Positions 23,643-64,000 of a stretch of 64,000 nucleotides of DNA are shown here, in pieces. Positions within the stretch are counted from its first letter, which is position 1; every line of letters starts with the position of its first letter. The notes beneath the pieces were generated by a model. The model was not told the DNA's origin. It worked only from the letters and a program-made list of their open reading frames with translations, and ran no database searches. The stretch comes from a virus: IMG/VR virus record IMGVR_UViG_3300028388_003025, positions 1 to 64,000 of that record. One strand, written 5' to 3'. Both the position numbers and the translations under genes were made by a program.

Positions 23643-23720
23643 ATGTTATACTTTAACATATCCGAGAAGAGCGAGCGGCCTTCCGAGATACCAAATATAA
23701 AAATGGAGGTCCGCGCTTAA
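23643..23720 (+). CDS. Possible 25-aa leader peptide
   Basis: An ATG at 23643 opens 25 codons whose stop overlaps the next ATG as TAATG. A ribosome-like GGAGG lies inside it and would also serve the following gene. There is no ribosome site for the leader itself, so it may be chance. Confidence 0.3.
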   Translation: MLYFNISEKSERPSEIPNIKMEVRA

Positions 23721-26461
23721 TGGATATTAAAAACATAACCGAGCTTGTTGCACAGCGCAATGACATTTCTCTTGATCAAAAGTTTAGACAGAAGGCAGAC
23801 GAAGGTGACCTTTCACTAATAAAACAATTCGCACTAGATCAGGAGATCACAACGGAAGATGTACATGTTCGTGCAATGTACTTATGTAACGACTTAGTCG
23901 ATTACTACTTTACTAGATTTGACGAAGCAGACTTGGATGCGATAGCAGAAATGCTACCTGGCCAGTCAGTTATTGTTGGACACAAGAGAGAGATGGCACC
24001 TATTGCTAGATTTTATAAAGCAGAGAAGGTAGTTCGTACTGATAAGAAATTCATTAACGAAGAGACTGGCGAAGATGTTCGTTGGATCAAAGCTTACTTC
24101 TATTGGCCAACTGGTGTAGAAGGTTCTGAAGATATGAGAAAGAAAATTGATACAGGTGTATGGAAAGAGATTTCTATATCATGGTCATATAAAAGATGCG
24201 TATGTTCTATCTGTGGCAAAGACATGTTACAAGGAATGGCTGCACTATTTGCTGACGAAGATGAAGATGTTTGTAAGCACAGACTTGGAAAACAATACGA
24301 AGGCAAACTTTGCTACGGTACTGTAAAAGATATTACAAAAGTATTGGAAGGATCTGTTGTATTTAAAGGCGGACAAAAATTTACTGAATTAGCTTTCGTA
24401 AGATCTGCTGATGGACAAGAAGTTAATATAGAAGATGCTGATCCTGAAGTAAGAGATCTAGCTAATGGTACAATGGAATTCTATAAACAAAGAATACTAG
24501 GCGCAAATCCTGATGGCGAACCAGCAAAGAATGAATTCAGACATATGGCAAGAGCTTTAGAAGAAGCTAAAGTATCTAGCCCAGTATGGTACAACAAAGA
24601 AATGAAAAGATTCTTCTGCGCAGAGTCAGACAGAGATATTGTTTCTTCTATAGTAGAAGGCGCAAGATTTGTTGAAGGTGTTTCTGAAACACAGGACTTC
24701 ATGCGTGGCGAGTCCGAGGGAATCGTATCCTGCTTGGCTGCTCCTGTGGATAAGCAGCCTGGCATCTATTTCAAACCAACTAAGCCTCATCGTAGATATG
24801 ACGAGTCAAATGAATACTACAAGGCCGACAGATTAAGAGAGCTAGTTGGCTCTTATATGTTGTCGCCAAAGTATGATGGTATTCGTCTTACTGTTCATAA
24901 ATCTGAGAACGGCGAGATCAGAATGTTTACTATGGGTGGCATGGAAGTTGCTCGCAAATTCCCAGCCATAGTAGAGCAAGTTAGAGGTTTTGATCCAAAG
25001 ACTTTAATCCTTGACGGTGAATTAGTTAGAATTAATAAAAACAAAAGAACAACTCATGCAGATGTTTCTTCATATATAAACAATCCTAACTCAGACATTG
25101 ATCACAGAACATTTACATTCAAAGCTTTTGATATGGTATATCTAAATGGTGAAGATGTTTCTGAGAAACCATTATCTGAAAGAGTTCATTTATTAAACTC
25201 TAATATTCAGACTACTGCAAATGTTAATAGAGTAGCTAACATGACTGCTCAAAGCGGTGAAGAAGTTGTTAGCATGATTGACCAAGTATCTTCTAGAGAA
25301 GGTGCTGTGATAAAAAAATCCGACGCGGCTTACGCAGAGGCTCGAACTTGGTATAAATGGAAGCGTCAAGCAGAATTTACTGCAAGAGTTTCTAAAGTTA
25401 ACAAGGTAGATTCTAGCAGATTTACATATAATATTTCTGTACTAGACGAGAAGGATAATTTGGTTGAAGTTGGCAGGACTTATCAGACTGGTGTTGAGGC
25501 AGAAGAAGGCGACAATATCAGAATGTCAGTTGCTTACATTAAAAAGAATGAAGATGGCTCATTAATGATTTCTGAGCCTAACGTAGTTTGCAAAATGTTT
25601 GAATCAATCGAGCCAGATTCTATGATTACTATAGAAAGAATCATGGAAGAGTATGACGAAGATCGTCAAGGCAAGATGAAGAAATGCCCTAAGTGTGGGA
25701 TTTCTGTTGCTGCAGATGCTAAGGTTTGTCCTAAGTGTGGATATAAATTCACTGAAGACACTGGTAAGACTGATAAGAAAACAGATGAGCCTAAGGAAGA
25801 ATCAGATGATTCTAAATCTATAGTTGATGACCCTAACAAAACAACTTATAGAATAGAACACCATTGGGATTCTGCAGAGCAATTCAGAATTCTTGAAATT
25901 AATAAAGAAGGAAGATATTTCAACGTCGTTATCCAAGGGGGGATCAACGACGATTTAAGCAAACGTTCAATGAAGCGTGTTGATTTACATGTTGACCTAT
26001 CTATTGATGATAACAGAAAAATCAAAACGAAAGAAAGACAGGACCTACCTGATAGAGCGTTTGCACTAGTATATATGAAGGATGGACAGAAGGTTCGTAA
26101 GCTTCCGTTACATAATAGCAAAGTTTCTTCTGGACATACCTGGACAGGCGAAGATGTTGAGAGAGCGCAGGTATCTTCTGCAGCTCAGTTGATCTCAAAG
26201 ATTAAAGATGCACCAGATGCCAAGATAAGAATGGCTAAGAAGCATATCGATAAACATCTTGAAGCCTTGAATGAAGAAGGTATAGAAACGAAGAAGCGAG
26301 AAATATGTAATGGAGAAGCCAAGGTCGAGGTCTTGACAACCGGCGAGATCCGTGTAGAATTAATTAACACTAAACGTTCAGGCATTACAGAGAGATTTCT
26401 CCTGCAGCCTGTACGAATCAATGGCAAAATTGATTACTACTACAAGGCTATCCAAAGCTAA
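23720..26461 (+). CDS. Prohead-protease-like / ATP-dependent DNA ligase fusion, 913 aa
   Basis: Residues about 45-230 resemble a phage prohead protease: VIVGHKREMAPIARF with a candidate catalytic His, GVWKEISISWS with a candidate Ser, then a Cys/His cluster (CSICG, CKHRLG). Residues about 360-640 form a full ATP-dependent DNA ligase: motif I K384-Y-D-G-I-R, motif III LDGEL (D432, E434), FKAFDMVYLNGED, motif IV EGAVIKK (E527), motif V WYKWKR (544-549), and an OB-like part. A zinc ribbon (CPKCG, then CPKCGY, about 656-677) and a domain like those at the end of phage head-protease polyproteins (LPDRAFALVYMKDGQ) follow. It lies in the classic protease slot between portal and scaffold. Confidence 0.85.
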   Translation: MDIKNITELVAQRNDISLDQKFRQKADEGDLSLIKQFALDQEITTEDVHVRAMYLCNDLVDYYFTRFDEADLDAIAEMLPGQSVIVGHKREMAPIARFYKAEKVVRTDKKFINEETGEDVRWIKAYFYWPTGVEGSEDMRKKIDTGVWKEISISWSYKRCVCSICGKDMLQGMAALFADEDEDVCKHRLGKQYEGKLCYGTVKDITKVLEGSVVFKGGQKFTELAFVRSADGQEVNIEDADPEVRDLANGTMEFYKQRILGANPDGEPAKNEFRHMARALEEAKVSSPVWYNKEMKRFFCAESDRDIVSSIVEGARFVEGVSETQDFMRGESEGIVSCLAAPVDKQPGIYFKPTKPHRRYDESNEYYKADRLRELVGSYMLSPKYDGIRLTVHKSENGEIRMFTMGGMEVARKFPAIVEQVRGFDPKTLILDGELVRINKNKRTTHADVSSYINNPNSDIDHRTFTFKAFDMVYLNGEDVSEKPLSERVHLLNSNIQTTANVNRVANMTAQSGEEVVSMIDQVSSREGAVIKKSDAAYAEARTWYKWKRQAEFTARVSKVNKVDSSRFTYNISVLDEKDNLVEVGRTYQTGVEAEEGDNIRMSVAYIKKNEDGSLMISEPNVVCKMFESIEPDSMITIERIMEEYDEDRQGKMKKCPKCGISVAADAKVCPKCGYKFTEDTGKTDKKTDEPKEESDDSKSIVDDPNKTTYRIEHHWDSAEQFRILEINKEGRYFNVVIQGGINDDLSKRSMKRVDLHVDLSIDDNRKIKTKERQDLPDRAFALVYMKDGQKVRKLPLHNSKVSSGHTWTGEDVERAQVSSAAQLISKIKDAPDAKIRMAKKHIDKHLEALNEEGIETKKREICNGEAKVEVLTTGEIRVELINTKRSGITERFLLQPVRINGKIDYYYKAIQS

Positions 26462-53703: not shown

Positions 53704-54162
53704 ATGCCAGGCTCATTAATTACAGTTCGTGAATACACAGAAAACGACACAGAGATGTCCATCTTTGACTTCGGTTATATAGCTCAAGATCAGATAGGAT
53801 TCTCTAAGCGATTAGTAATATATAACAACTACGATGCGCTTGCTAACGTTGGTGACGCACTAGCTGTTAATATATGTGCCTATGACGATGAAGACAAGAA
53901 CGCTGCAACAGAGCCAATAGTTGGTAAATGGATAGAAGCTAGACAAGTTGAATACAATGGCGTAGCTCTTGATGATCAGCCTTGGACTCCGATAGGCGGA
54001 TCAAATAAGCTTCTGCTTCCTTATAACTCAGCGAAGATAAATGGATCTGACGGAGAGCGTGGATCAAGCACTATTATAGAACTGAGGATGAATATTCCTC
54101 ACGACATTACAATATATGGCGAATACAAACCGTATATATGCCTAGAATATGAGGAAGCTTAA
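53704..54162 (+). CDS. Fibre-region protein, 152 aa
   Basis: No ribosome site. The protein is beta-rich and acidic (SIFDFGYIAQDQIGFSKRLV). It precedes the large fibre gene and overlaps it by one base, so it may attach the fibre or act as its chaperone. Family not recognised. Confidence 0.6.
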   Translation: MPGSLITVREYTENDTEMSIFDFGYIAQDQIGFSKRLVIYNNYDALANVGDALAVNICAYDDEDKNAATEPIVGKWIEARQVEYNGVALDDQPWTPIGGSNKLLLPYNSAKINGSDGERGSSTIIELRMNIPHDITIYGEYKPYICLEYEEA

Positions 54163-57100
54163 TGGTAAAAGGTAAACAAGTATACTCAGCTGGTGAGCTA
54201 TATACAACGTCAGCAGTAAATCAAGAACAATTAGATAGAGAGATTGGAGATAGCAATCTAATATCAGACCTTATAACCAAGGGCAAGGTAATAATTGGAG
54301 ACACAGGCTTAAAGGGAGTTGCTGGATCTTCAGAATTTTCTATAAACCCAGGCACGGCATATGCATTGCAGAGTAATGATATTGTAAGGCGTATAGCCCT
54401 TGAATCTTTTATTGAATACGAGCCTCAAATGTCTGTTGATAAGAACACAGTTGTTGTGGATCACAAGATAAAACCTGGCGGCACAGTGAGAGTTTACAAA
54501 GCTTTCGCAGCAAACAGATTCATCGAGATGGAATCAGTTGGCGAAGGCGATGGGACTATCGCTCAATTTGATTTACAATATGTTTCCGATGGCGACGATG
54601 CTGATCCTAATTTTGTATATATAAACGAGAACGCTATCGATCCTTCTAAGTGGTTCTTTACAACTGGATCTAATGGTCAGTCTCAAAAAGCAATTAAATT
54701 TAATCAAACAACTTCAGAGATAGAAACAGATAACGCTCAGGCAGATTGGAACCTGACAGGGCTTATATTAAAACTATCTCTCTTTAATCCAGCAACACTC
54801 AGCTTTATAAACGTAGATGTTAACTTTGTTGGCGCGAATCCGCTTGCAACTAATGATGTTGTTGCGCAAATTCAATCAGCAATAAACAATGCTGGCATGA
54901 ATCCTTATTATCAAGCGACGACAAGCGCAAGTAAGATAAGTATATCAAGTATAAATACAGGCTTTGACAAGAGAATTAAAATAATTTCAAGCGGTAGCAC
55001 AGCAATAGGCGTTGGGCTTCTAGAATACAGTGGAGCAAATTTAGACACAGAGGTTGCTGGCTCTGGTGAGGTTACATTATATGATAGGGTTTATTGTTCT
55101 TACACTAGATATTATAAGGATTATTATGGAAGCTTTAGCTTAACCGACTATAAAACAATAACGCTTAATGATGATCTAACTAGTGAAGAGGATCAGAATG
55201 AATCAATTCCAGTTATCGTAGAATATGAGCCAGACCTTACATATTATTATGGTGGTGATGAATACTCAATAGCAGCTCTGCCATCTAGTGGTAATAGCCG
55301 ATATGATTTAGTATACATCGAGTTTAAAGAAGATAAAAAATACCATGAACAATTCTTTTTCAATACTGATACATTAGCACCAGAAAGAAAAACATCTCTA
55401 TCTAGAAATGTATATAGTTATGAGATTAAAGTTTTATCAGCAGCAGAGGCCGCTACGAATCCTCCGCATGTTGATATTGACGATTTATTAAATTCATCAA
55501 CTGGTGTTAGTCCATATGCCATACCACTATTTGAGGTTCTAGTAACTGATGCTGGCGCTGTTTCTATAGAGAATAACATTATAGGTTCGGTTACTGGCAC
55601 TCAGGACGTAAACTATTTAAGACTATCTGACTATAGGTTCTATAATTCAAACCTAGATAATTTTAGACGAAGAGAAATTGATGTTCCAATAAAAGAACAA
55701 TGGACAGTCACTACAGGCAATTCAACTCAGATATTAAACTTTGACGAAGAGTATGGATATTGCATAGCAGATGATTATGTTACAGTTGCTGACCAGAACC
55801 CTAGTGGAGATCTTGTATATAGAGATGCAGCTGGAGCTCCTGCGGCAGAAGATATTGATAACTTAATATTCGCAAAGATAACAACAGCAACTCCTGGTTC
55901 CGAAGAAGTCACGTTCTATCGTGGCGATCCAAATGGAACTCTCGGTGTTGACTATAATGTATTCACAACAGCTTCAAATGAAGACTGGATTCTTAACTAC
56001 TATATAAGATCAACGATAGAAAGAATGCCTGTTGATATTTTAAAAACACTATCAACAAACGGAATGGCAATAGATTCTGGCGCATTAACTGAAACAGCTA
56101 AGAACTTAAGAAAGCTTAGGGTAGACTTTAATACTGTAATGAACGGCAAGCTTACCTATATTAAGAGTTTGCAAGAAATAAAATGGACAGCAACCAGATT
56201 CTTATTTAGAGACATAGATGGTTCTTCTGTCAATACTCTAACAGCCAGTGCGGCCAATGTTGCAATAGCTGACGGAGAATATGCTTATGTTATATTTGAC
56301 AGAACTGGCGCCACTGTATTAAATGATGAAGTAAAAGTGGACTCAAACCCTTGGGCCCTACATCCTGATTATGAAAACGATTTAATAATTCTTGGCGTAA
56401 GAGATGGGCAAGACTTCTTTTATGCAAATGATTCTAATAGTGGTACTGGCGGTGGCGGAGAGTGGGTTGAAGAAGTCAATGCTCCAGCCACAATGACTGG
56501 TTCAAATCAGCTAGTTATACCAGACGCAGACGACGTTGCTGATTCTATATATTCTATTGGAAGGTTTGTCAGAATTGAAACAGTTGAAGGACTGGGTGCT
56601 GAAAATTATTACTATGCTCAAATATCTGCAGTAGCTAGTGCTCCACCAAACTTCACAATAGATATAGAGAATGTTCAAGATAAAGATGGAACATCACAAA
56701 CAATTACTAGCGGAGCTACAATATTATCTTTTAAATATGTTGCCATGCAGATGAAATATATGGGAATAAACAATGATGTCAACCCACAGAACAAAGCCTT
56801 GCTAGATCACGTAAGTGACTTTTCAATTCACAATTCTTTTAAATATGTATTTAACACAGAGAATCTTTCATCACAAATTGGTGTAGGGGGATCCGGATTA
56901 TCCTTTACAATGACTTCTGATGGAGAGACAGACTCTATAGTTGTATATCATAATGGTGTTTTACTTGATCCTGCAAGTGAGTATACTGTTAATTCAACAA
57001 ACTCTTTTACAATTATTGGCAACGTTGATCCTGATGATAGCGTTTTCGTATCATATGCACTGCTAGGTCAGGAGCAAGGATTCGTGTTTAATGAAGACTT

Positions 57101-57956
57101 GGGCGTTCAAGGCATAGGAAGCGTGTTCACAACAGCACAAGAATTCGTTCCATCATCTATAATGGTATTTAGGAATGGCGGTTATTTAACCTTAGGTAGT
57201 ACTCCAAATGGATATACTGTAACAGATTCAAATGAAATAACATTAGGCAGTGCTTTGACTGCTGGAGAAACTCTTGTTGTGCACTATGATATAGCTGGAG
57301 GAGATACGAACTTTGTCATATTCAATGAGAACGTTTCTAGTCAAGCACCAGGATCTACATTCTCTTTAGTCAACGCGTTTTTTCCAGACTCATTAATGGT
57401 CATAAGAAACGGGCAGGTACTAACACAAGGAATAGACCCAGGAGACTTTACGGTTTCTGGAACAAGAACATTTACCCTCAATACTCCAGCAGAAAGCTGG
57501 GAATCTATAGTCGTTACATACAATAGACAATGGACTACAGTTGCTGCACTTATAGATTTAACAGATGTAAATCTAGAAAGCCCTGCAGAAGGAGATGTTC
57601 TTACATATAATGCAACTTCTGAGAAGTGGGAAAATACAGTTCAAAAAGAATATATTACGCTTAAGGCAATGGTTCCTTCAGTAAGTTCTTATCTAGACAT
57701 AGCATCTATTCCTTGGGACGGAACTATAACTGGAGTAAAAATCAAGTGTGACCAAGGTACTGCAAACTTAACTGCTAGTCTATATAAAAATGGCGCCAGC
57801 TTAGTCGCTGGACCGACAGCATTATTAAATAATAACTGGACAGATCCAGGCCCATTGGCAAACACGTCTGTTGTAATAGGGGATACACTTAACTTAGATG
57901 TTTCTTCTTACACAACAGGAACAGTGTTACTTATTGAGGTTGAAATAACCCGATAA
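54162..57956 (+). CDS. Large tail fibre protein, 1,264 aa
   Basis: An N-terminal attachment part is followed by many beta-rich segments. Three tandem repeats of about 78 residues lie at about 897-1123: FNTENLSSQIG, FNEDLGVQGIG and FNENVSSQAPG begin the copies, and each ends near VVYHN/VVHYD-like strands. A linker ALIDLTDVNLESPAEGDVLT typical of phage fibres follows. The C-terminal 90 residues could be a carbohydrate-binding sandwich. It probably recognises the host surface. Confidence 0.8.
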   Translation: MVKGKQVYSAGELYTTSAVNQEQLDREIGDSNLISDLITKGKVIIGDTGLKGVAGSSEFSINPGTAYALQSNDIVRRIALESFIEYEPQMSVDKNTVVVDHKIKPGGTVRVYKAFAANRFIEMESVGEGDGTIAQFDLQYVSDGDDADPNFVYINENAIDPSKWFFTTGSNGQSQKAIKFNQTTSEIETDNAQADWNLTGLILKLSLFNPATLSFINVDVNFVGANPLATNDVVAQIQSAINNAGMNPYYQATTSASKISISSINTGFDKRIKIISSGSTAIGVGLLEYSGANLDTEVAGSGEVTLYDRVYCSYTRYYKDYYGSFSLTDYKTITLNDDLTSEEDQNESIPVIVEYEPDLTYYYGGDEYSIAALPSSGNSRYDLVYIEFKEDKKYHEQFFFNTDTLAPERKTSLSRNVYSYEIKVLSAAEAATNPPHVDIDDLLNSSTGVSPYAIPLFEVLVTDAGAVSIENNIIGSVTGTQDVNYLRLSDYRFYNSNLDNFRRREIDVPIKEQWTVTTGNSTQILNFDEEYGYCIADDYVTVADQNPSGDLVYRDAAGAPAAEDIDNLIFAKITTATPGSEEVTFYRGDPNGTLGVDYNVFTTASNEDWILNYYIRSTIERMPVDILKTLSTNGMAIDSGALTETAKNLRKLRVDFNTVMNGKLTYIKSLQEIKWTATRFLFRDIDGSSVNTLTASAANVAIADGEYAYVIFDRTGATVLNDEVKVDSNPWALHPDYENDLIILGVRDGQDFFYANDSNSGTGGGGEWVEEVNAPATMTGSNQLVIPDADDVADSIYSIGRFVRIETVEGLGAENYYYAQISAVASAPPNFTIDIENVQDKDGTSQTITSGATILSFKYVAMQMKYMGINNDVNPQNKALLDHVSDFSIHNSFKYVFNTENLSSQIGVGGSGLSFTMTSDGETDSIVVYHNGVLLDPASEYTVNSTNSFTIIGNVDPDDSVFVSYALLGQEQGFVFNEDLGVQGIGSVFTTAQEFVPSSIMVFRNGGYLTLGSTPNGYTVTDSNEITLGSALTAGETLVVHYDIAGGDTNFVIFNENVSSQAPGSTFSLVNAFFPDSLMVIRNGQVLTQGIDPGDFTVSGTRTFTLNTPAESWESIVVTYNRQWTTVAALIDLTDVNLESPAEGDVLTYNATSEKWENTVQKEYITLKAMVPSVSSYLDIASIPWDGTITGVKIKCDQGTANLTASLYKNGASLVAGPTALLNNNWTDPGPLANTSVVIGDTLNLDVSSYTTGTVLLIEVEITR

Positions 57957-58210: not shown

Positions 58211-58813
58211 ATGAGTAATTTTGATATAAAAGAGATACAAGACAAACTTGATCTAGACTTTAAAAGTTTTGATAAAGGCAATGCCCCACAAGATGTTTTG
58301 TTTAACTATAAAGGTGAAAGCACAGAGAATAAGATAGAACTTTTCAAGCTTCTATTAACTCATGGCGCTGTCTTAAACAGCTCAATGCTTTCAAATCTTT
58401 GGTTTTTAATTAGATCTGGAGCAGACTTGTCAGATGATTTCTTTAAGTTAGATGCCGTATGGTTCAATGATCTTGAAGAATTTCTTGATATAAAAATAGA
58501 ATTGAAAAAAGAAATAGATATATTCACAAGAGAACTTGTTAAGTATTACCTTGCAGTTATGGCCTCTGCTTCATATGAAATGGAAGGCTCTGACGAAGGA
58601 GCCGAAGGAATTCCTTATACATTCCAAAGAGTATTGCTAAGCACTGACTTATTTTCTTTATCAAATTTAGTATACAAGGTTGATTTAAATACAAAAGATT
58701 TACCAATAGTTTCAGGCTCTGTAAAAATATTGAGTGCACTTGTTGGTAAAGCTAAATTTATAATGAGCTTTGCTGAAGATGTATTAAACAAATCTGTAGA
58801 GGTAGATAGGTAA
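58211..58813 (+). CDS. Hypothetical protein, 200 aa
   Basis: GGAGG precedes the ATG. The protein is helical and acidic, with no membrane segment. Its last base overlaps the next start. Placement at the head of the poly-serine cassette suggests a chaperone or partner, but I see no recognised domain. Confidence 0.65.
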   Translation: MSNFDIKEIQDKLDLDFKSFDKGNAPQDVLFNYKGESTENKIELFKLLLTHGAVLNSSMLSNLWFLIRSGADLSDDFFKLDAVWFNDLEEFLDIKIELKKEIDIFTRELVKYYLAVMASASYEMEGSDEGAEGIPYTFQRVLLSTDLFSLSNLVYKVDLNTKDLPIVSGSVKILSALVGKAKFIMSFAEDVLNKSVEVDR

Positions 58814-59406
58814 TGGCGCCAACTATATCATATCAAGCAGTAATAGATGCAGTCTTGGCAGACATAGAAGCTAAGTGTTCTAATGTTGGAACAGACACTG
58901 TTCCTGCAGCTGCTAAAAGCGCTGTATATTATTCTGAGTCCGGAACCTATGATCTTGGTGGAGCTTTTGAATTAGGCGCGGGGATCAATTCTGTCCCTAC
59001 AATTTTAAACCTAGTTGCCGCAGCTACTGTTCAAACACAGCTTGATGCGTTTTTATTACTACATGGCATGGACAGTGCTAGTGGCAAGATGACATCCAAG
59101 TTCTTTTTTAGACTAATAAGTTTATTGGCATGCTTTTATTCTGCAAGAGTAGTACATGCAACATATGCTGCAGGTCAAAGTCTTGTTATATATAACTCAG
59201 GCGCTGTAACTTATAATACTCCAGTTGTCACTGATGATCAGAACCTTGTAACAATTACAGATATAAACGATTTAATAACAAACTTTAAAGATAATTATTC
59301 TAATGTTGACAACATTGCAAACCTAGGCTATTACACTTCTGCTACTAGCAGCAGTTCTAGCAGTTCTTCGTCGAACTTTATTGCCTATTTTAATTTAAAT
59401 GGATAA
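58813..59406 (+). CDS. Poly-Ser-tailed protein A, 197 aa
   Basis: The body is helical and alanine-rich, with FFFRLISLLACFYSARVVH and the phrase NSGAVTYNTPV. It ends with nine consecutive serines and then NFIAYFNLNG. The next gene has a homologous body and almost the same ending, so they are paralogs. The C-terminal peptide may be a recognition or attachment signal for the modifying enzymes encoded just downstream. The body may be a small virion or fibre-tip protein. No known family. Confidence 0.72.
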   Translation: MAPTISYQAVIDAVLADIEAKCSNVGTDTVPAAAKSAVYYSESGTYDLGGAFELGAGINSVPTILNLVAAATVQTQLDAFLLLHGMDSASGKMTSKFFFRLISLLACFYSARVVHATYAAGQSLVIYNSGAVTYNTPVVTDDQNLVTITDINDLITNFKDNYSNVDNIANLGYYTSATSSSSSSSSSNFIAYFNLNG

Positions 59407-59419
59407 GGAGTATATATAA

Positions 59420-60115
59420 ATGTTTCCAAACTTGAAGACCTACGGACAACTATATGACGAAGGATTGGCTTATGTAAAAAGCATCTGCAAAAATATAGAC
59501 AGCTACGATGTGTCTGTTCCAGACTCCTTGAAACACGGAGCAATATTAACGAGAACTGCTCCACATAACTTGATTGACCCAGCCGTTGCAGCAACCCCAG
59601 CCCAGGTAGATTTAACACAGACTGCTATTGCCGCAACATCAACAGCAACAGTAGACTCTCAATACCAGGCATACTTCAATGCAAATGGTTTTACTACTGC
59701 ATCATCTACGTACGCAAACACTAAAGCAATCGTTAATTACATTTCACTTCTTAGTGCGTTTATAACTGCAAGATGCGTCACTGTAAAGAATCCAGAAGCT
59801 CCAGCAGAAGCTGAGGTTATGTATGACGATGGAGCTGTAACATATCCAACAACTGTAGAAAACAAATATAGTATTGATTACATACAAGAAGAAGATTTTG
59901 ATGCTCTTTACTCTACGTTCTTTGACTCAATGTCCAGCACTTTGAAGGTTCAGTTCGTAAGCTCTGCAGCAGCACTTAGCTCATCTTCATCCAGTTCGTC
60001 ATCATCTAGTTCGTCAAGCTCATCTAGCTCATCATCGTCTAGTTCTTCTAGCTCATCATCATCTAGCAGTAGCTCTAGCTGTTTGTTTGTAGCGTATTTC
60101 AACCTTAATGGATGA
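59420..60115 (+). CDS. Poly-Ser-tailed protein B, 231 aa
   Basis: AAGGAG precedes the ATG by nine bases. The body matches protein A (AYFNANGFTTAS against AFLLLHGMDSAS, and DDGAVTYPTTV against NSGAVTYNTPV). It ends with 34 consecutive serines and then CLFVAYFNLNG. The serine run uses all six codons (TCA, TCT, TCC, TCG, AGT, AGC), so the amino acid is conserved rather than a DNA repeat. A single cysteine follows the run. The stop overlaps the radical SAM start as ATGA, so production is coupled to that enzyme. Confidence 0.75.
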   Translation: MFPNLKTYGQLYDEGLAYVKSICKNIDSYDVSVPDSLKHGAILTRTAPHNLIDPAVAATPAQVDLTQTAIAATSTATVDSQYQAYFNANGFTTASSTYANTKAIVNYISLLSAFITARCVTVKNPEAPAEAEVMYDDGAVTYPTTVENKYSIDYIQEEDFDALYSTFFDSMSSTLKVQFVSSAAALSSSSSSSSSSSSSSSSSSSSSSSSSSSSSSSSSSCLFVAYFNLNG

Positions 60116-61029
60116 GCTCCTATTTAAAGATTTTACAGTTTCTCTTATGGGAGAACTGTAGTAACGGGTGCGAATTTTGTCTGTTTAAAGATGGCAATTT
60201 TTACAATGAAGAAGAAAAAATATCCTCTATAGACAATGCTATTTCTATAATAAAGAAAAAAGAAACTATTGATAAGTATGACGGCGTCGGACTGATAGGC
60301 GGCGAGGTCCTTGAAAGACAAACTCCAGACGTTGAGTCTAAGTGGTTTGAATTAATAGACTATATAAATAGTAGCGAATATAAAACAGTGTGGCTAGCAA
60401 CCAGCTTATTGTATAAAGATAATTCTTTACTGCATGAAACAATAAACAGGCTTAAAGATGTACACATATATCTATGTACAAGCTTTGATGTTGAAGGTAG
60501 ATTCAATGAGATTAAAAAAGAAAATTGGCATAAGAATATAGCATCAATTGATTACGATAATGTCACGATCCACACATCAATTATATTAAATGATTCACTT
60601 ATTGATGCATTTAATAATCATAAGCGCCTTTTAGATAACGTACCAAACTTTAGCTTTATTGCCCCGCAATTAAATGCTACAGAACATTGGGGAAAAGATC
60701 TTAAAGACTATAATAGCCTTTTGAGAGAGCTACATAACACATATCACCCCGGCTTCTTTATAAAGAACAGGTCAGTTTTGTTAAAATTTGTTAGAGAATT
60801 TTTTATGCATTATGGTAAGAATATACTTAAACATTCAATTGAGATTAAAACGCATAGTTATGATACAATAATACCAAGCAGATTTTCTGAAGACTATTAT
60901 AAAGACAAGTGGTTGTCTTCAAGCAAGTTTAACCTTGGCTGTGGCCACGAGAATTATTCTAAATTTTATTTAGACTCAGACAAATGTGTGTTTTGTGATA
61001 TTGAGGAGGTTCTTAATTGCTTAGAGTAG
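60112..61029 (+). CDS. Radical SAM enzyme 1, 305 aa
   Basis: The CX3CX2C cluster motif is C16-S-N-G-C20-E-F-C23, which binds the [4Fe-4S] cluster and S-adenosylmethionine, and GLIGGEV supplies the GGE motif. The C-terminus has CGHENYSKFYL and CVFCDIEE, a further cysteine set that may hold an auxiliary cluster. The enzyme would make 5'-deoxyadenosyl radicals for hard chemistry on a peptide or small molecule. It overlaps the poly-Ser gene by four bases and the carbamoyltransferase by 13. Confidence 0.9.
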   Translation: MSSYLKILQFLLWENCSNGCEFCLFKDGNFYNEEEKISSIDNAISIIKKKETIDKYDGVGLIGGEVLERQTPDVESKWFELIDYINSSEYKTVWLATSLLYKDNSLLHETINRLKDVHIYLCTSFDVEGRFNEIKKENWHKNIASIDYDNVTIHTSIILNDSLIDAFNNHKRLLDNVPNFSFIAPQLNATEHWGKDLKDYNSLLRELHNTYHPGFFIKNRSVLLKFVREFFMHYGKNILKHSIEIKTHSYDTIIPSRFSEDYYKDKWLSSSKFNLGCGHENYSKFYLDSDKCVFCDIEEVLNCLE

Positions 61030-62594
61030 AATTAAATAAAGACGAAGAGTCTGTAATTAATTGCTACCAAATGTATCATGACGCTATAACAACAATACTA
61101 AGGCCAGACGGAGAAGTTATATCTATAGAAGAAGAGAGGCTTGTAAGAACTAGACATGCTTTAAGAGATGTGGCCAACCCTAACAAACCCTTTTTAGACT
61201 CTGAGATACTATGTAAAAGAGTCTTCCACAATGATAATGATGGCTATTTAAAAGAAGTATATGCTAACGAGTATGATCACCATATAGCTCATGCATATGG
61301 AGCATTAACACAAAGCGGTATGTGGGATCAGGCTGCAATATTGGTTGTAGATGGTTGGGGTAAGGACATCAACACAGAAGAGTTTAATAGTATAGCAATA
61401 TTCTCTGCAAATAATGGTGAGATAGAAACAAAAAGAGTCTATGATATAGCTTATTCTATAGGCGTCATGTATTCATACTCAAGCGAAATGGTATTCAAGC
61501 ATGAGTTTACAGAAGGAAAGTTTATGGGACTGGCCACGCATGGCGATGCAAAGTCTGTGCCAAGGCTTTATACTATTGACGAAAGTACTGGAGATATATC
61601 TTATTACAGTGAGGCATACCCAATAAAAGAAGAACACAAAGTCCACAACAATGGCTGGAATACTCACTTATTGAACTGGATCTATAATGAGGTATATCCT
61701 CTTTGCAATAGCGATGCAGATTTCGCAGCAACAATCCAAAAAGAATTTGAGCTAATTATGTTTGAACTTGTTAAGTATATTAAGAATACTGTAGGTGGTG
61801 ACCGCTTAATAATAAGTGGAGGCTGTGGTCTTAACTGTACGTTTAATGGCAAGTTGCTGGCAGCTAATATATTTAAAGATGTCTACATCCCACCTATGTG
61901 TACAGATCAAGGAAGTTCTATAGGTGTTTTATCTGCATATAAAAAGCAGAATATAAACAAGACACTTAAATATAATACTATAATCCATCCATTGCCGGAT
62001 GATATTAAAGAAGTAGATATGGAGTGGGTGGCTAACATGCTCAAGTCTGGCAAGATAGTTGCATGGTTTGAAGGTGGCTCTGAATATGGGCCAAGAGCAT
62101 TATGCCATAGAAGCTTGCTTGCTGTCCCTAACAAGAAAGATGTAGCAGACAAGGTTAACAGAATAAAAAACAGGGAGTTGTGGAGGCCGTTAGCTCCCGT
62201 AGTTCTTGATACAGAGTTTGAAAAGATGTTTGATTGTAAGCCTGGCGTGCTACACGAATTCATGCTTTCAACAGAGACTGTCAGTGAAGATTATAGAGAA
62301 AAGGTGCCGGCAGTTCTTGCTAAAGACAATACTACAAGGCCACAAATACTCTTTAATGATTTAGACAATTCTGTATTGTATTCTATTATGAAGTCATTTG
62401 ACTTGCCTGTGTTACTTAACACATCCTTTAATGACAGAGGAGAGGCAATATGTGAGTCTCCAGGGGATGCTATAAGGTTTGTAAACAAAAGAGATAAAGA
62501 AGATGTGGTGCTTATATTCTGTGACGGTAATAAGATTTATAACTATGCTAGAATGTCTAAACCACTATTCAATGGAGATACTGATGGCAAGTAG
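61017..62594 (+). CDS. Carbamoyltransferase, NodU/TobZ family, 525 aa
   Basis: A TTG start follows GAGGAGG. The N-terminal Kae1-like half has DHHIAHAYGA, the metal-binding HXXXH. The C-terminal half has FEGGSEYGPRALCHRSLLA, LWRPLAPVV and LLNTSFNDRGEAI, all family hallmarks. Such enzymes use carbamoyl phosphate and ATP to carbamoylate hydroxyl groups, for example on sugars, through a carbamoyl-adenylate. Here the target could be serine, a sugar on serine or a product of the radical SAM enzymes. Confidence 0.95.
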   Translation: MLRVELNKDEESVINCYQMYHDAITTILRPDGEVISIEEERLVRTRHALRDVANPNKPFLDSEILCKRVFHNDNDGYLKEVYANEYDHHIAHAYGALTQSGMWDQAAILVVDGWGKDINTEEFNSIAIFSANNGEIETKRVYDIAYSIGVMYSYSSEMVFKHEFTEGKFMGLATHGDAKSVPRLYTIDESTGDISYYSEAYPIKEEHKVHNNGWNTHLLNWIYNEVYPLCNSDADFAATIQKEFELIMFELVKYIKNTVGGDRLIISGGCGLNCTFNGKLLAANIFKDVYIPPMCTDQGSSIGVLSAYKKQNINKTLKYNTIIHPLPDDIKEVDMEWVANMLKSGKIVAWFEGGSEYGPRALCHRSLLAVPNKKDVADKVNRIKNRELWRPLAPVVLDTEFEKMFDCKPGVLHEFMLSTETVSEDYREKVPAVLAKDNTTRPQILFNDLDNSVLYSIMKSFDLPVLLNTSFNDRGEAICESPGDAIRFVNKRDKEDVVLIFCDGNKIYNYARMSKPLFNGDTDGK

Positions 62595-63540
62595 CGAAGA
62601 TAAAAGTTGTAGACCTTTAGGTATTCAAGTATGGAATGATTGCTCAAATAATTGTAGCTTCTGTGTACAGAAGCACTTTATAAAAGAAGTAACGCCACTT
62701 CACAAGAAGAAGCGATCAATAGGCCTAGCAATGTCTCAGGTTCTAAACAACGATATAATAAAAGAATATCAAGGAGTCATGCTTATAGGTGGCGAGATAT
62801 TTGGAGGCCAATTAAAAGGCCTTTATTCTGACTGGTTTGATCTGCTTGAGGCCTTCAATACTGCAGGATTAAAGCATGTAATACTACAAACAGGCCTCAT
62901 GTATGAAGATGTTTCAGATCTTATCGAGTCCTTGGCCATAGTTAAAGATATAGAACAGGTAGTTATATCGACTTCATATGATACGCTAGGCAGATTCTCC
63001 AAGAAAACTAAAGACATTTGGGACAAGAATTTGTTGCTACTAGAGAAGCTAAAGAAGAAGTATAAGTTTCAGATCAATGTTTCTGTAATAATGACCCAAG
63101 CATTCATTGATGAGTATCTAGCTGGGAACTTTGTACACCCTAAAGGGGCTGACAGAGTTAGCTTATGCATCCCTCATATGTTTTCTGACCACCGTGATGC
63201 TCTTGATAATCCAGATCAATACTCGGACAAACTAAGAGATAGTGAATGTGAATACTCTGACAGGTTTTTGCCATTAAGGGATATTGATAAGCTTGCAGAG
63301 TTTGCTCACAAGTTCTCTGCCCAGTATGGATATGGAGGACTTGGCAGCTTTATAGAGTCAGCACAAGATATAATTCCATCATTTACACAAGACAATGATG
63401 TAGAACCTACCGACTTCATGCCTCGTAGTAGATGTGGGCACCTATTGATAGCACAATGTTATTCTGACAGCAACGAGTGCCTTGCTTGTGATCTTGAAAA
63501 ACTAATACCAAATATAAAGGAGTTGGCAAAGAATGGATAA
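62584..63540 (+). CDS. Radical SAM enzyme 2, 318 aa
   Basis: I choose the ATG at 62584, which follows GGAG at seven bases. A longer frame from 62503 overlaps the carbamoyltransferase more. C20-S-N-N-C24-S-F-C27 is the cluster motif and LIGGEIFGG the GGE motif. WNDCSNNCSFC matches WENCSNGCEFC of enzyme 1, so they are paralogs. The C-terminal CGHLLIAQC and CLACDLE give extra cysteines like those of enzyme 1. The stop overlaps the next gene's start. Confidence 0.9.
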   Translation: MASSEDKSCRPLGIQVWNDCSNNCSFCVQKHFIKEVTPLHKKKRSIGLAMSQVLNNDIIKEYQGVMLIGGEIFGGQLKGLYSDWFDLLEAFNTAGLKHVILQTGLMYEDVSDLIESLAIVKDIEQVVISTSYDTLGRFSKKTKDIWDKNLLLLEKLKKKYKFQINVSVIMTQAFIDEYLAGNFVHPKGADRVSLCIPHMFSDHRDALDNPDQYSDKLRDSECEYSDRFLPLRDIDKLAEFAHKFSAQYGYGGLGSFIESAQDIIPSFTQDNDVEPTDFMPRSRCGHLLIAQCYSDSNECLACDLEKLIPNIKELAKNG

Positions 63541-64000
63541 GTCTTATTGCGCACACCTAGATTCAAACTCTATGTTTGTTCGCTTCAAGGAGAATAGTTC
63601 TGACTTAATCTTTAGCTGTTGTAGTAACAGGGCTACAGATAACTTTGGCGATAAAGAATGTACTATCTCTTGTGATAACAGATCTGAAAATATAGATATG
63701 AAAAACGTATTAGGCATAGGTGCATACGGCAAATGTAATATACAGTGCAGGTATTGCAACTCTTCTCAGGTAGAGGTTAGTAGCGACTATTATGATATAC
63801 TTGAAAAGAATATATTAGAGCGACTAGACCTTTCAAAAGTAGAGAAAATGTTCTGCGGTAGTGGAGAGCTTTTCTGTGACGAAGGTTTGCAGTCCTTATA
63901 CAAGAAGATATTAGCAATAAATCCAAACATTAAGGTTGTTATAGAAACAAATGGCATAGCATGGGACGAGAGTATTTTAGATAATATAGGTATGACAAGC
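63533..64000 (+). CDS. Radical SAM enzyme 3, partial
   Basis: The gene starts at the ATG 63533, about ten bases after AGGAG, and runs out of the window. C68-N-I-Q-C72-R-Y-C75 is the cluster motif, and CGSGE stands in for GGE. An N-terminal set of cysteines (FSCCSN, CTISC) before the motif differs from enzymes 1 and 2, so this is a distinct subtype that may carry an extra cluster or zinc. The C-terminus is unseen. Confidence 0.85.
   Translation, partial: MDKSYCAHLDSNSMFVRFKENSSDLIFSCCSNRATDNFGDKECTISCDNRSENIDMKNVLGIGAYGKCNIQCRYCNSSQVEVSSDYYDILEKNILERLDLSKVEKMFCGSGELFCDEGLQSLYKKILAINPNIKVVIETNGIAWDESILDNIGMTS

Follow-up and report, generated by a model that had tools for sequence, protein, structure and literature searches.

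The record that carries this locus is linear and 79,120 bp long, and its bases 1 to 64000 form the window, the 64,000-nucleotide stretch that was analysed. The phage is contractile-tailed, with a recognisable portal, major head protein, tail sheath, and baseplate wedge. The genes for the last two are located upstream of a 1264-aa ORF on the + strand (54162 to 57956), which encodes a large tail-fibre-like protein with a weak PHROG match and lies directly upstream of, and outside, the cassette described here. Near the head genes, a 913-aa ORF (window positions 23720 to 26461) gives a partial-length match to an ATP-dependent DNA ligase profile (PHROG 114).

The cassette spans record coordinates 58211 to 70594, extending beyond the end of the window. 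All of its genes are on the + strand, and most adjacent pairs overlap or abut. They encode a helical protein (A200), two poly-Ser paralogs, a TobZ-like carbamoyltransferase, two glycosyltransferase-like proteins, and eight radical SAM (rSAM) enzymes; a single unnamed family accounts for six of the eight. A200 (58211 to 58813) is a 200-aa, all-helical conserved partner whose homologues lie beside poly-Ser genes in relatives. Poly-Ser protein 1 (58813 to 59406) consists, by family alignment, of a domain of ~180 aa, 9 Ser residues in a row, and the C-terminal sequence NFIAYFNLNG; poly-Ser protein 2 (59420 to 60115) has the domain, 34 Ser residues in a row, and the C-terminal sequence CLFVAYFNLNG. 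These are followed by an rSAM gene (60112 to 61029) with CSNGCEFC and GGE motifs, assigned by alignment as a divergent member of the CGHx6YxDSDxCxxCD family and basal in its tree, and by the gene for an accessory NodU/TobZ-type carbamoyltransferase (61017 to 62594). The next rSAM gene (62551 to 63540; CSNNCSFC) falls in the same family by alignment and tree, and its start is uncertain, the ORF being open from 62503. An rSAM gene of another type, with a QueE/MoaA-like barrel (63533 to 64336, of which the window holds 63533 to 64000; PF04055 E value, 1e-13), crosses the window's end. Beyond it are an rSAM-like gene with CX4CX2C (record 64351 to 65094), an rSAM gene (65066 to 66025), rSAM alpha (66026 to 66940), two glycosyltransferase-like genes with an RGTDY motif (66944 to 67768 and 67761 to 68627), rSAM gamma (68627 to 69688), and rSAM beta (69698 to 70594). 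Lysis-type and tail-fibre-like genes come after beta: a 148-aa ORF and small ORFs, an M15-like peptidase gene (71717 to 72181), and the tail-fibre-like genes.

A first-pass annotation of the window had described two poly-Ser-tailed paralogs, three rSAM enzymes, and a carbamoyltransferase, joined by overlapping starts and stops. Every gene that it named is present in the order given, on the + strand, and both paralogs bear the Ser runs. Most neighbours overlap or abut. The extent needed correction: the cassette starts one gene earlier, with A200, and past 64 kb, where the end was to be sought, it continues through five more rSAM genes and the RGTDY pair to 70594.

The tract of 9 to 34 Ser residues is ended by a short conserved hydrophobic motif, [F/Y][I/V][A/G][Y/H/F]; in most relatives, the Ser tract also contains scattered Cys residues, and it has an F-I-A-Y-M-like end. 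AlphaFold modelled poly-Ser protein 2 with pLDDT values mostly above 80 over residues 11 to 140 and a disordered Ser tail, and a search with the predicted structure gave no meaningful match to the domain's fold in PDB or BFVD. A C-terminal run of eight or more Ser/Cys residues, the criterion used for the control count, ends none of the 213 ORFs taken from control phage loci and none of the 62 window ORFs outside the cassette, which excludes a chance origin of the tails. Codon slippage was also rejected as their source. In the window and its relatives, 22 tracts together encode Ser by 302 TCN and 144 AGY codons, with both boxes mixed in nearly every tract. Identical adjacent Ser codons number 88, a count below that of every one of 200 shuffles (mean, 109; range, 89 to 131). 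Triplet slippage would enrich identical codons, and the opposite is seen; the amino acid run itself therefore appears to be maintained. Gene position suggests that the poly-Ser protein is part of the virion. Companion paralogs of the tail protein that have no Ser tract are encoded beside the tailed copy at relatives' loci L030 (12820 to 13542), L039 (10780 to 11346), L041 (10700 to 11260), L055 (7665 to 8303), L057 (5104 to 5676), and L059 (18152 to 18745), and may form hetero-oligomers with it.

AlphaFold predicted A200 as all-helical (pLDDT, 86), and the predicted structure had no fold match in PDB. The A200 gene (58211 to 58813) is part of the conserved cassette unit.

The CX3CX2C proteins at 60112, 62503, and 63533 match PF04055 with E values of 1e-3, 2e-4, and 1e-13, respectively, and two proteins of the window cassette score above the PF04055 cut-off. 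All three sites are intact, as the first-pass annotation had read them. CX3CX2C and GGE are invariant among 68 members of the rSAM family, which places it in the radical SAM superfamily, and its hallmark, found in six of the eight cassette enzymes, is the C-terminal CGHx6YxDSDxCxxCD motif. A tree of 79 members contains three supported clades, alpha, beta, and gamma, with SH-aLRT values of 100 for both alpha and beta. Among 17 records, the window included, alpha is present in 16 (absent in G016, which is cut at a contig end), beta in 16 (absent in G010, likewise cut), and gamma in 13, the window among them. By this distribution, the three clades are the core of the cassette. Conserved C-terminal cysteines number four in alpha and three each in beta and gamma. 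Beta has an extra cysteine in the barrel region (Cys181) in 15 of 16 enzymes; alpha and gamma have none.

The best relative of the rSAM profile among solved structures in PDB is EpeE/YydG (8ai3; hmmsearch E value, 3e-9; profile positions 4 to 181), followed by viperin-like enzymes (E value, 1e-4). EpeE acts on Val and Ile, not on Ser. It abstracts the alpha hydrogen, has a cysteine donor that returns one, and contains a second Fe-S cluster (PMC8326336). Its locus in Bacillus subtilis, yydFGHIJ, resembles the cassette in having a related rSAM barrel and a ribosomal substrate encoded next door, and its second Fe-S cluster has a parallel in the C-terminal cysteine cluster of alpha, beta, and gamma. 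The two differ in that EpeE is a single enzyme acting on a short secreted peptide, whereas the phages carry 3 to 9 paralogs and the putative substrate is a Ser/Cys homopolymer on a folded tail-region protein. The EpeE alignment is remote, covers the barrel only, and ends before Cys223; the aligned region does not allow Cys181 of beta to be matched to Cys223.

The residues of the tract bear on a different chemistry, in which the rSAM enzymes would oxidise Ser/Cys at C-beta, as anSME does, to formylglycine aldehydes that could be aminated, glycosylated, or reactive with host amines. The SPASM domain of anSME has seven cysteines, against the three or four C-terminal ones conserved here. Ser and Cys are exactly the two residues that anSME converts to formylglycine, using two fully ligated auxiliary clusters (PMC8326336), and DegT or other aminotransferases are present in some cassettes. 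The closest structure, however, is that of EpeE and not of anSME, and the few C-terminal cysteines fit poorly with two such clusters; we regard this chemistry as unlikely, albeit the best placed of the alternatives.

All rSAM scores in NCBIfam were far below every cut-off. Sub-cut-off matches to the maturases PapB, SkfB, CbpB, and HxsC (the last for 6 of 68 members), together with the 1 to 8 Cys residues in the tracts of most relatives, would accord with thioether or carbon-carbon cross-links inside the Ser/Cys tail, as in sactipeptides or ranthipeptides, that produce a rigid tip. In the window, however, one tail holds a single Cys and the other none; Cys is therefore unnecessary, and cross-linking seems improbable. 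The matches to HxsC recall HxsABCD, in which a repetitive Ser-containing region is encoded beside the paired rSAM maturases HxsB and HxsC. That likeness is limited to a Ser-containing repetitive region next to rSAM genes: the cassette has neither His-Xaa-Ser repeats nor any HxsB/HxsC match above the NCBIfam cut-off, and HxsABCD is not a phage system.

The carbamoyltransferase belongs to the NodU/TobZ type, as first proposed, with matches to both Pfam domains (Carbam_trans_N, PF02543, E value, 4e-26; Carbam_trans_C, PF16861, 7e-44), PHROG 1601 (4e-84), and TobZ (3ven; 1e-46) and with intact HHxAH and NTSFN motifs. Its gene is found in the window and in 5 of 15 other records and, on that count, is accessory and not core. 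Also variable are glycosyltransferases (GT2), DegT aminotransferases, and a GDP-mannose-dehydratase-type enzyme. The glycosyltransferase-like call for the pair in the cassette is based on RGTDY/TED motifs and on one relative located among polysaccharide genes, and a profile search of the pair against PDB gave nothing usable. A recurring protein of ~335 aa, resembling a NifS-like PLP enzyme weakly (E value, 0.04), is encoded at L030 (6606 to 7658), L032 (7198 to 8202), L034 (12263 to 13303), L035 (6987 to 7994), L039 (3764 to 4777), and L041 (15628 to 16566); its lysine motif reads TAHAL, and it therefore probably does not form a normal PLP Schiff base.

These accessory genes permit two readings in which the rSAM enzymes leave the peptide alone. 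In one, the Ser tail would only be glycosylated, and the rSAM enzymes would remodel the sugar nucleotide or sugar. The two RGTDY proteins, with their relative among polysaccharide genes, and the GT2 and carbamoyltransferase genes of G008 and G012 agree with it, but in many cassettes (e.g., G1, G3, G5, G6, G9, and G11) the stretch that was examined shows no recognised glycosyltransferase next to the rSAM genes, and the relative of the rSAM profile acts on a peptide. We judge it as improbable as cross-linking. In the other, the enzymes would synthesise a sugar or a small molecule destined for either the host envelope or the phage, the poly-Ser protein being a neighbouring adhesin or linker in fibre regions that swap as blocks. 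Carbamoyltransferases without rSAM enzymes are common in cyanophages, some of them near fibre genes, and G012 has GDP-mannose dehydratase-type, GT2, and DegT genes. Against this, the sugar genes vary while A200, the tail protein, and the alpha and beta enzymes are constant, and phages without detectable capsid kinship yield the same set in reciprocal searches; of the alternatives, we consider this the least probable. Cyanophage carbamoyltransferases of the TobZ/NodU type (PHROG 1601) belong to the same enzyme family as that of the cassette, and their loci were rejected as the same system because the records tested have no cassette-family rSAM gene.

Relatives were sought in IMG/VR and GTDB with a DNA pattern of the C-terminal rSAM motif, a search blind to poly-Ser (motif information, ~42 bits; expected chance matches, well under one). 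In IMG/VR, the motif occurs in 16 stretches of 11 records, with 3 to 9 paralogs each. A Ser/Cys-tailed homologue and an A200 homologue lie beside the rSAM genes in 10 of these records, and the eleventh (G010) is cut at a contig end. Both the tail protein and A200 are present in each of the four GTDB hits (the Desulfovibrio isolate An276, Bacilli from rumen and from rabbit, and one uncultured bacterium); three of these hits are bins, whose contigs may derive from phages and not from the host. One bin, G015, was dismissed as a counterexample, with the tail protein and A200 (the latter recognised by eye) on other small contigs. Overall, 14 of the 15 records found through the rSAM motif carry both genes, the other being cut by a contig end. 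Conversely, a tail-only search found three records, each with adjacent rSAM genes, and the same 11 records came back from a scan that used an alpha profile and different peptide patterns. The association of the rSAM cluster, the tail protein, and A200 is well supported.

These counts bear on the first-pass proposal that the enzymes act on the Ser-rich tails. It would have been contradicted by relatives carrying the enzymes without poly-Ser proteins, and none were found, or by a nucleotide or cofactor pathway continuing past 64 kb, which is rejected, with rSAM and glycosyltransferase-like genes there instead. The part that it gave the carbamoyltransferase is reduced to an accessory one. As a whole, the proposal is partly supported, and the altered host binding or virion protection that it envisaged would be a possible benefit.

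Single-protein searches with the window's rSAM enzymes and carbamoyltransferase identified no close relatives in IMG/VR or INPHARED; INPHARED yielded only distant carbamoyltransferases, and the alpha and beta enzymes of a relative had no INPHARED match. A search by the window's own AYFNLNG end gave four matches, all attributed to chance. The alpha enzymes share 46 to 70% identity with the sequence in the first row of their alignment, whereas no other cassette record contains a match to the major head protein of the window; the cassette therefore seems to move between phages of anaerobic gut bacteria that look otherwise unrelated. Tail-fibre families neighbour it in several relatives. It is rare and sporadic: one genome has it among the 288 in the family to which the Desulfovibrio host belongs, and one among the 43 in the order that includes a Bacilli bin; the sample comprises 17 records, several of them fragments, and exact-pattern scans can miss divergent relatives. 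In G004 (L033, 2267 to 12609), two modules follow each other and together comprise four Ser-tailed proteins, two homologues of A200, five rSAM genes, and a carbamoyltransferase. A different array of 6 to 8 CNxxCxxC-type rSAM genes, at L039 (12640 to 19936) and L043, L042 (7854 to 16685), and L059 (4383 to 15827), surrounds a 208- to 239-aa protein with a conserved N terminus (IQKVTANNIVG...ATYHSGN) and a Cys/His-rich end (CHxNCYxxRxRR) and may be another tail-protein modification cassette.

Phages with many rSAM genes have been reported before. Campylobacter phages CP220 and CPt10, also from gut bacteria, encode 11 to 12 rSAM proteins, which were termed highly unusual and for which a role in host metabolic fitness was proposed (PMC2853527). 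CP220 has neither an rSAM gene of the cassette family nor a Ser/Cys tract and was rejected as the same system. The cassette resembles RiPP clusters in having a Ser/Cys tract with an FIAY-type end, the presumed substrate, beside rSAM genes; the equivalent of a leader would be the folded domain of ~180 residues. Maturation of ribosomal products by rSAM enzymes is of a known kind. In the literature searched, which mostly excluded subscription papers, we found nothing linking phage rSAM enzymes with poly-Ser tails, and a multi-rSAM maturation system reserved for the Ser/Cys homopolymer of a phage tail-region protein seems undescribed there.

The constant partners are the tail protein, A200, and rSAM enzymes akin to a peptide-modifying enzyme, and action of the rSAM enzymes on the tract is therefore the simplest reading. 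We consider it probable that they mature the Ser/Cys tail of the tail-region protein, with optional decoration; we infer the tail's role as substrate, the type of reaction, the location in the virion, and the benefit. The cassette would be a mobile maturation unit for a protein encoded next to the tail fibres. Its substrate would comprise a folded domain of ~180 residues and a disordered C-terminal Ser(/Cys) tract, on which alpha, beta, gamma, and further rSAM copies would act. They would probably recognise the protein by its folded domain or by the FIAY(M/F) motif at its end, and A200 would probably serve as a chaperone or adaptor. Epimerisation is the leading chemistry because EpeE takes an alpha hydrogen and a cysteine gives one back. 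If the tail is matured by rSAM enzymes, epimerisation as a main reaction is a possibility short of probable: EpeE-like hydrogen abstraction at Ser (or Cys) carbons would convert many residues to the D form. The extra conserved cysteine of beta could return the hydrogen, making beta the best epimerase candidate. Alpha and gamma have no such cysteine, so that no more than one of the clades agrees with the known mode of epimerisation. The carbamoyltransferase, glycosyltransferases, DegT aminotransferases, and GDP-sugar enzymes could optionally decorate the Ser hydroxyls or a sugar on them, and the resulting tail surface would resist proteases or be adhesive.

Radical-enzyme modification of tailed-phage structural proteins is seemingly undescribed. 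At somewhat less than even confidence, we suggest that the cassette is a mobile multi-enzyme phage system that converts an encoded Ser/Cys homopolymer, borne by a tail protein of the virion, to a new biopolymer (e.g., poly-D-serine, optionally carbamoylated or glycosylated), unlike described phage modifications. The presence in the same records of a second cassette type, whose proteins have Cys/His-rich tails, hints at a general principle. Now that the likely substrate and the enzymes that recur with it can be named, the role of gut-phage rSAM clusters can be put to the test with a single protein and three enzymes. A tract that proved to be epimerised or otherwise rebuilt would be an unnatural homopolymer encoded by a gene, of use in chemistry, and would represent a new principle by which phages in anaerobic guts vary or protect their surfaces.
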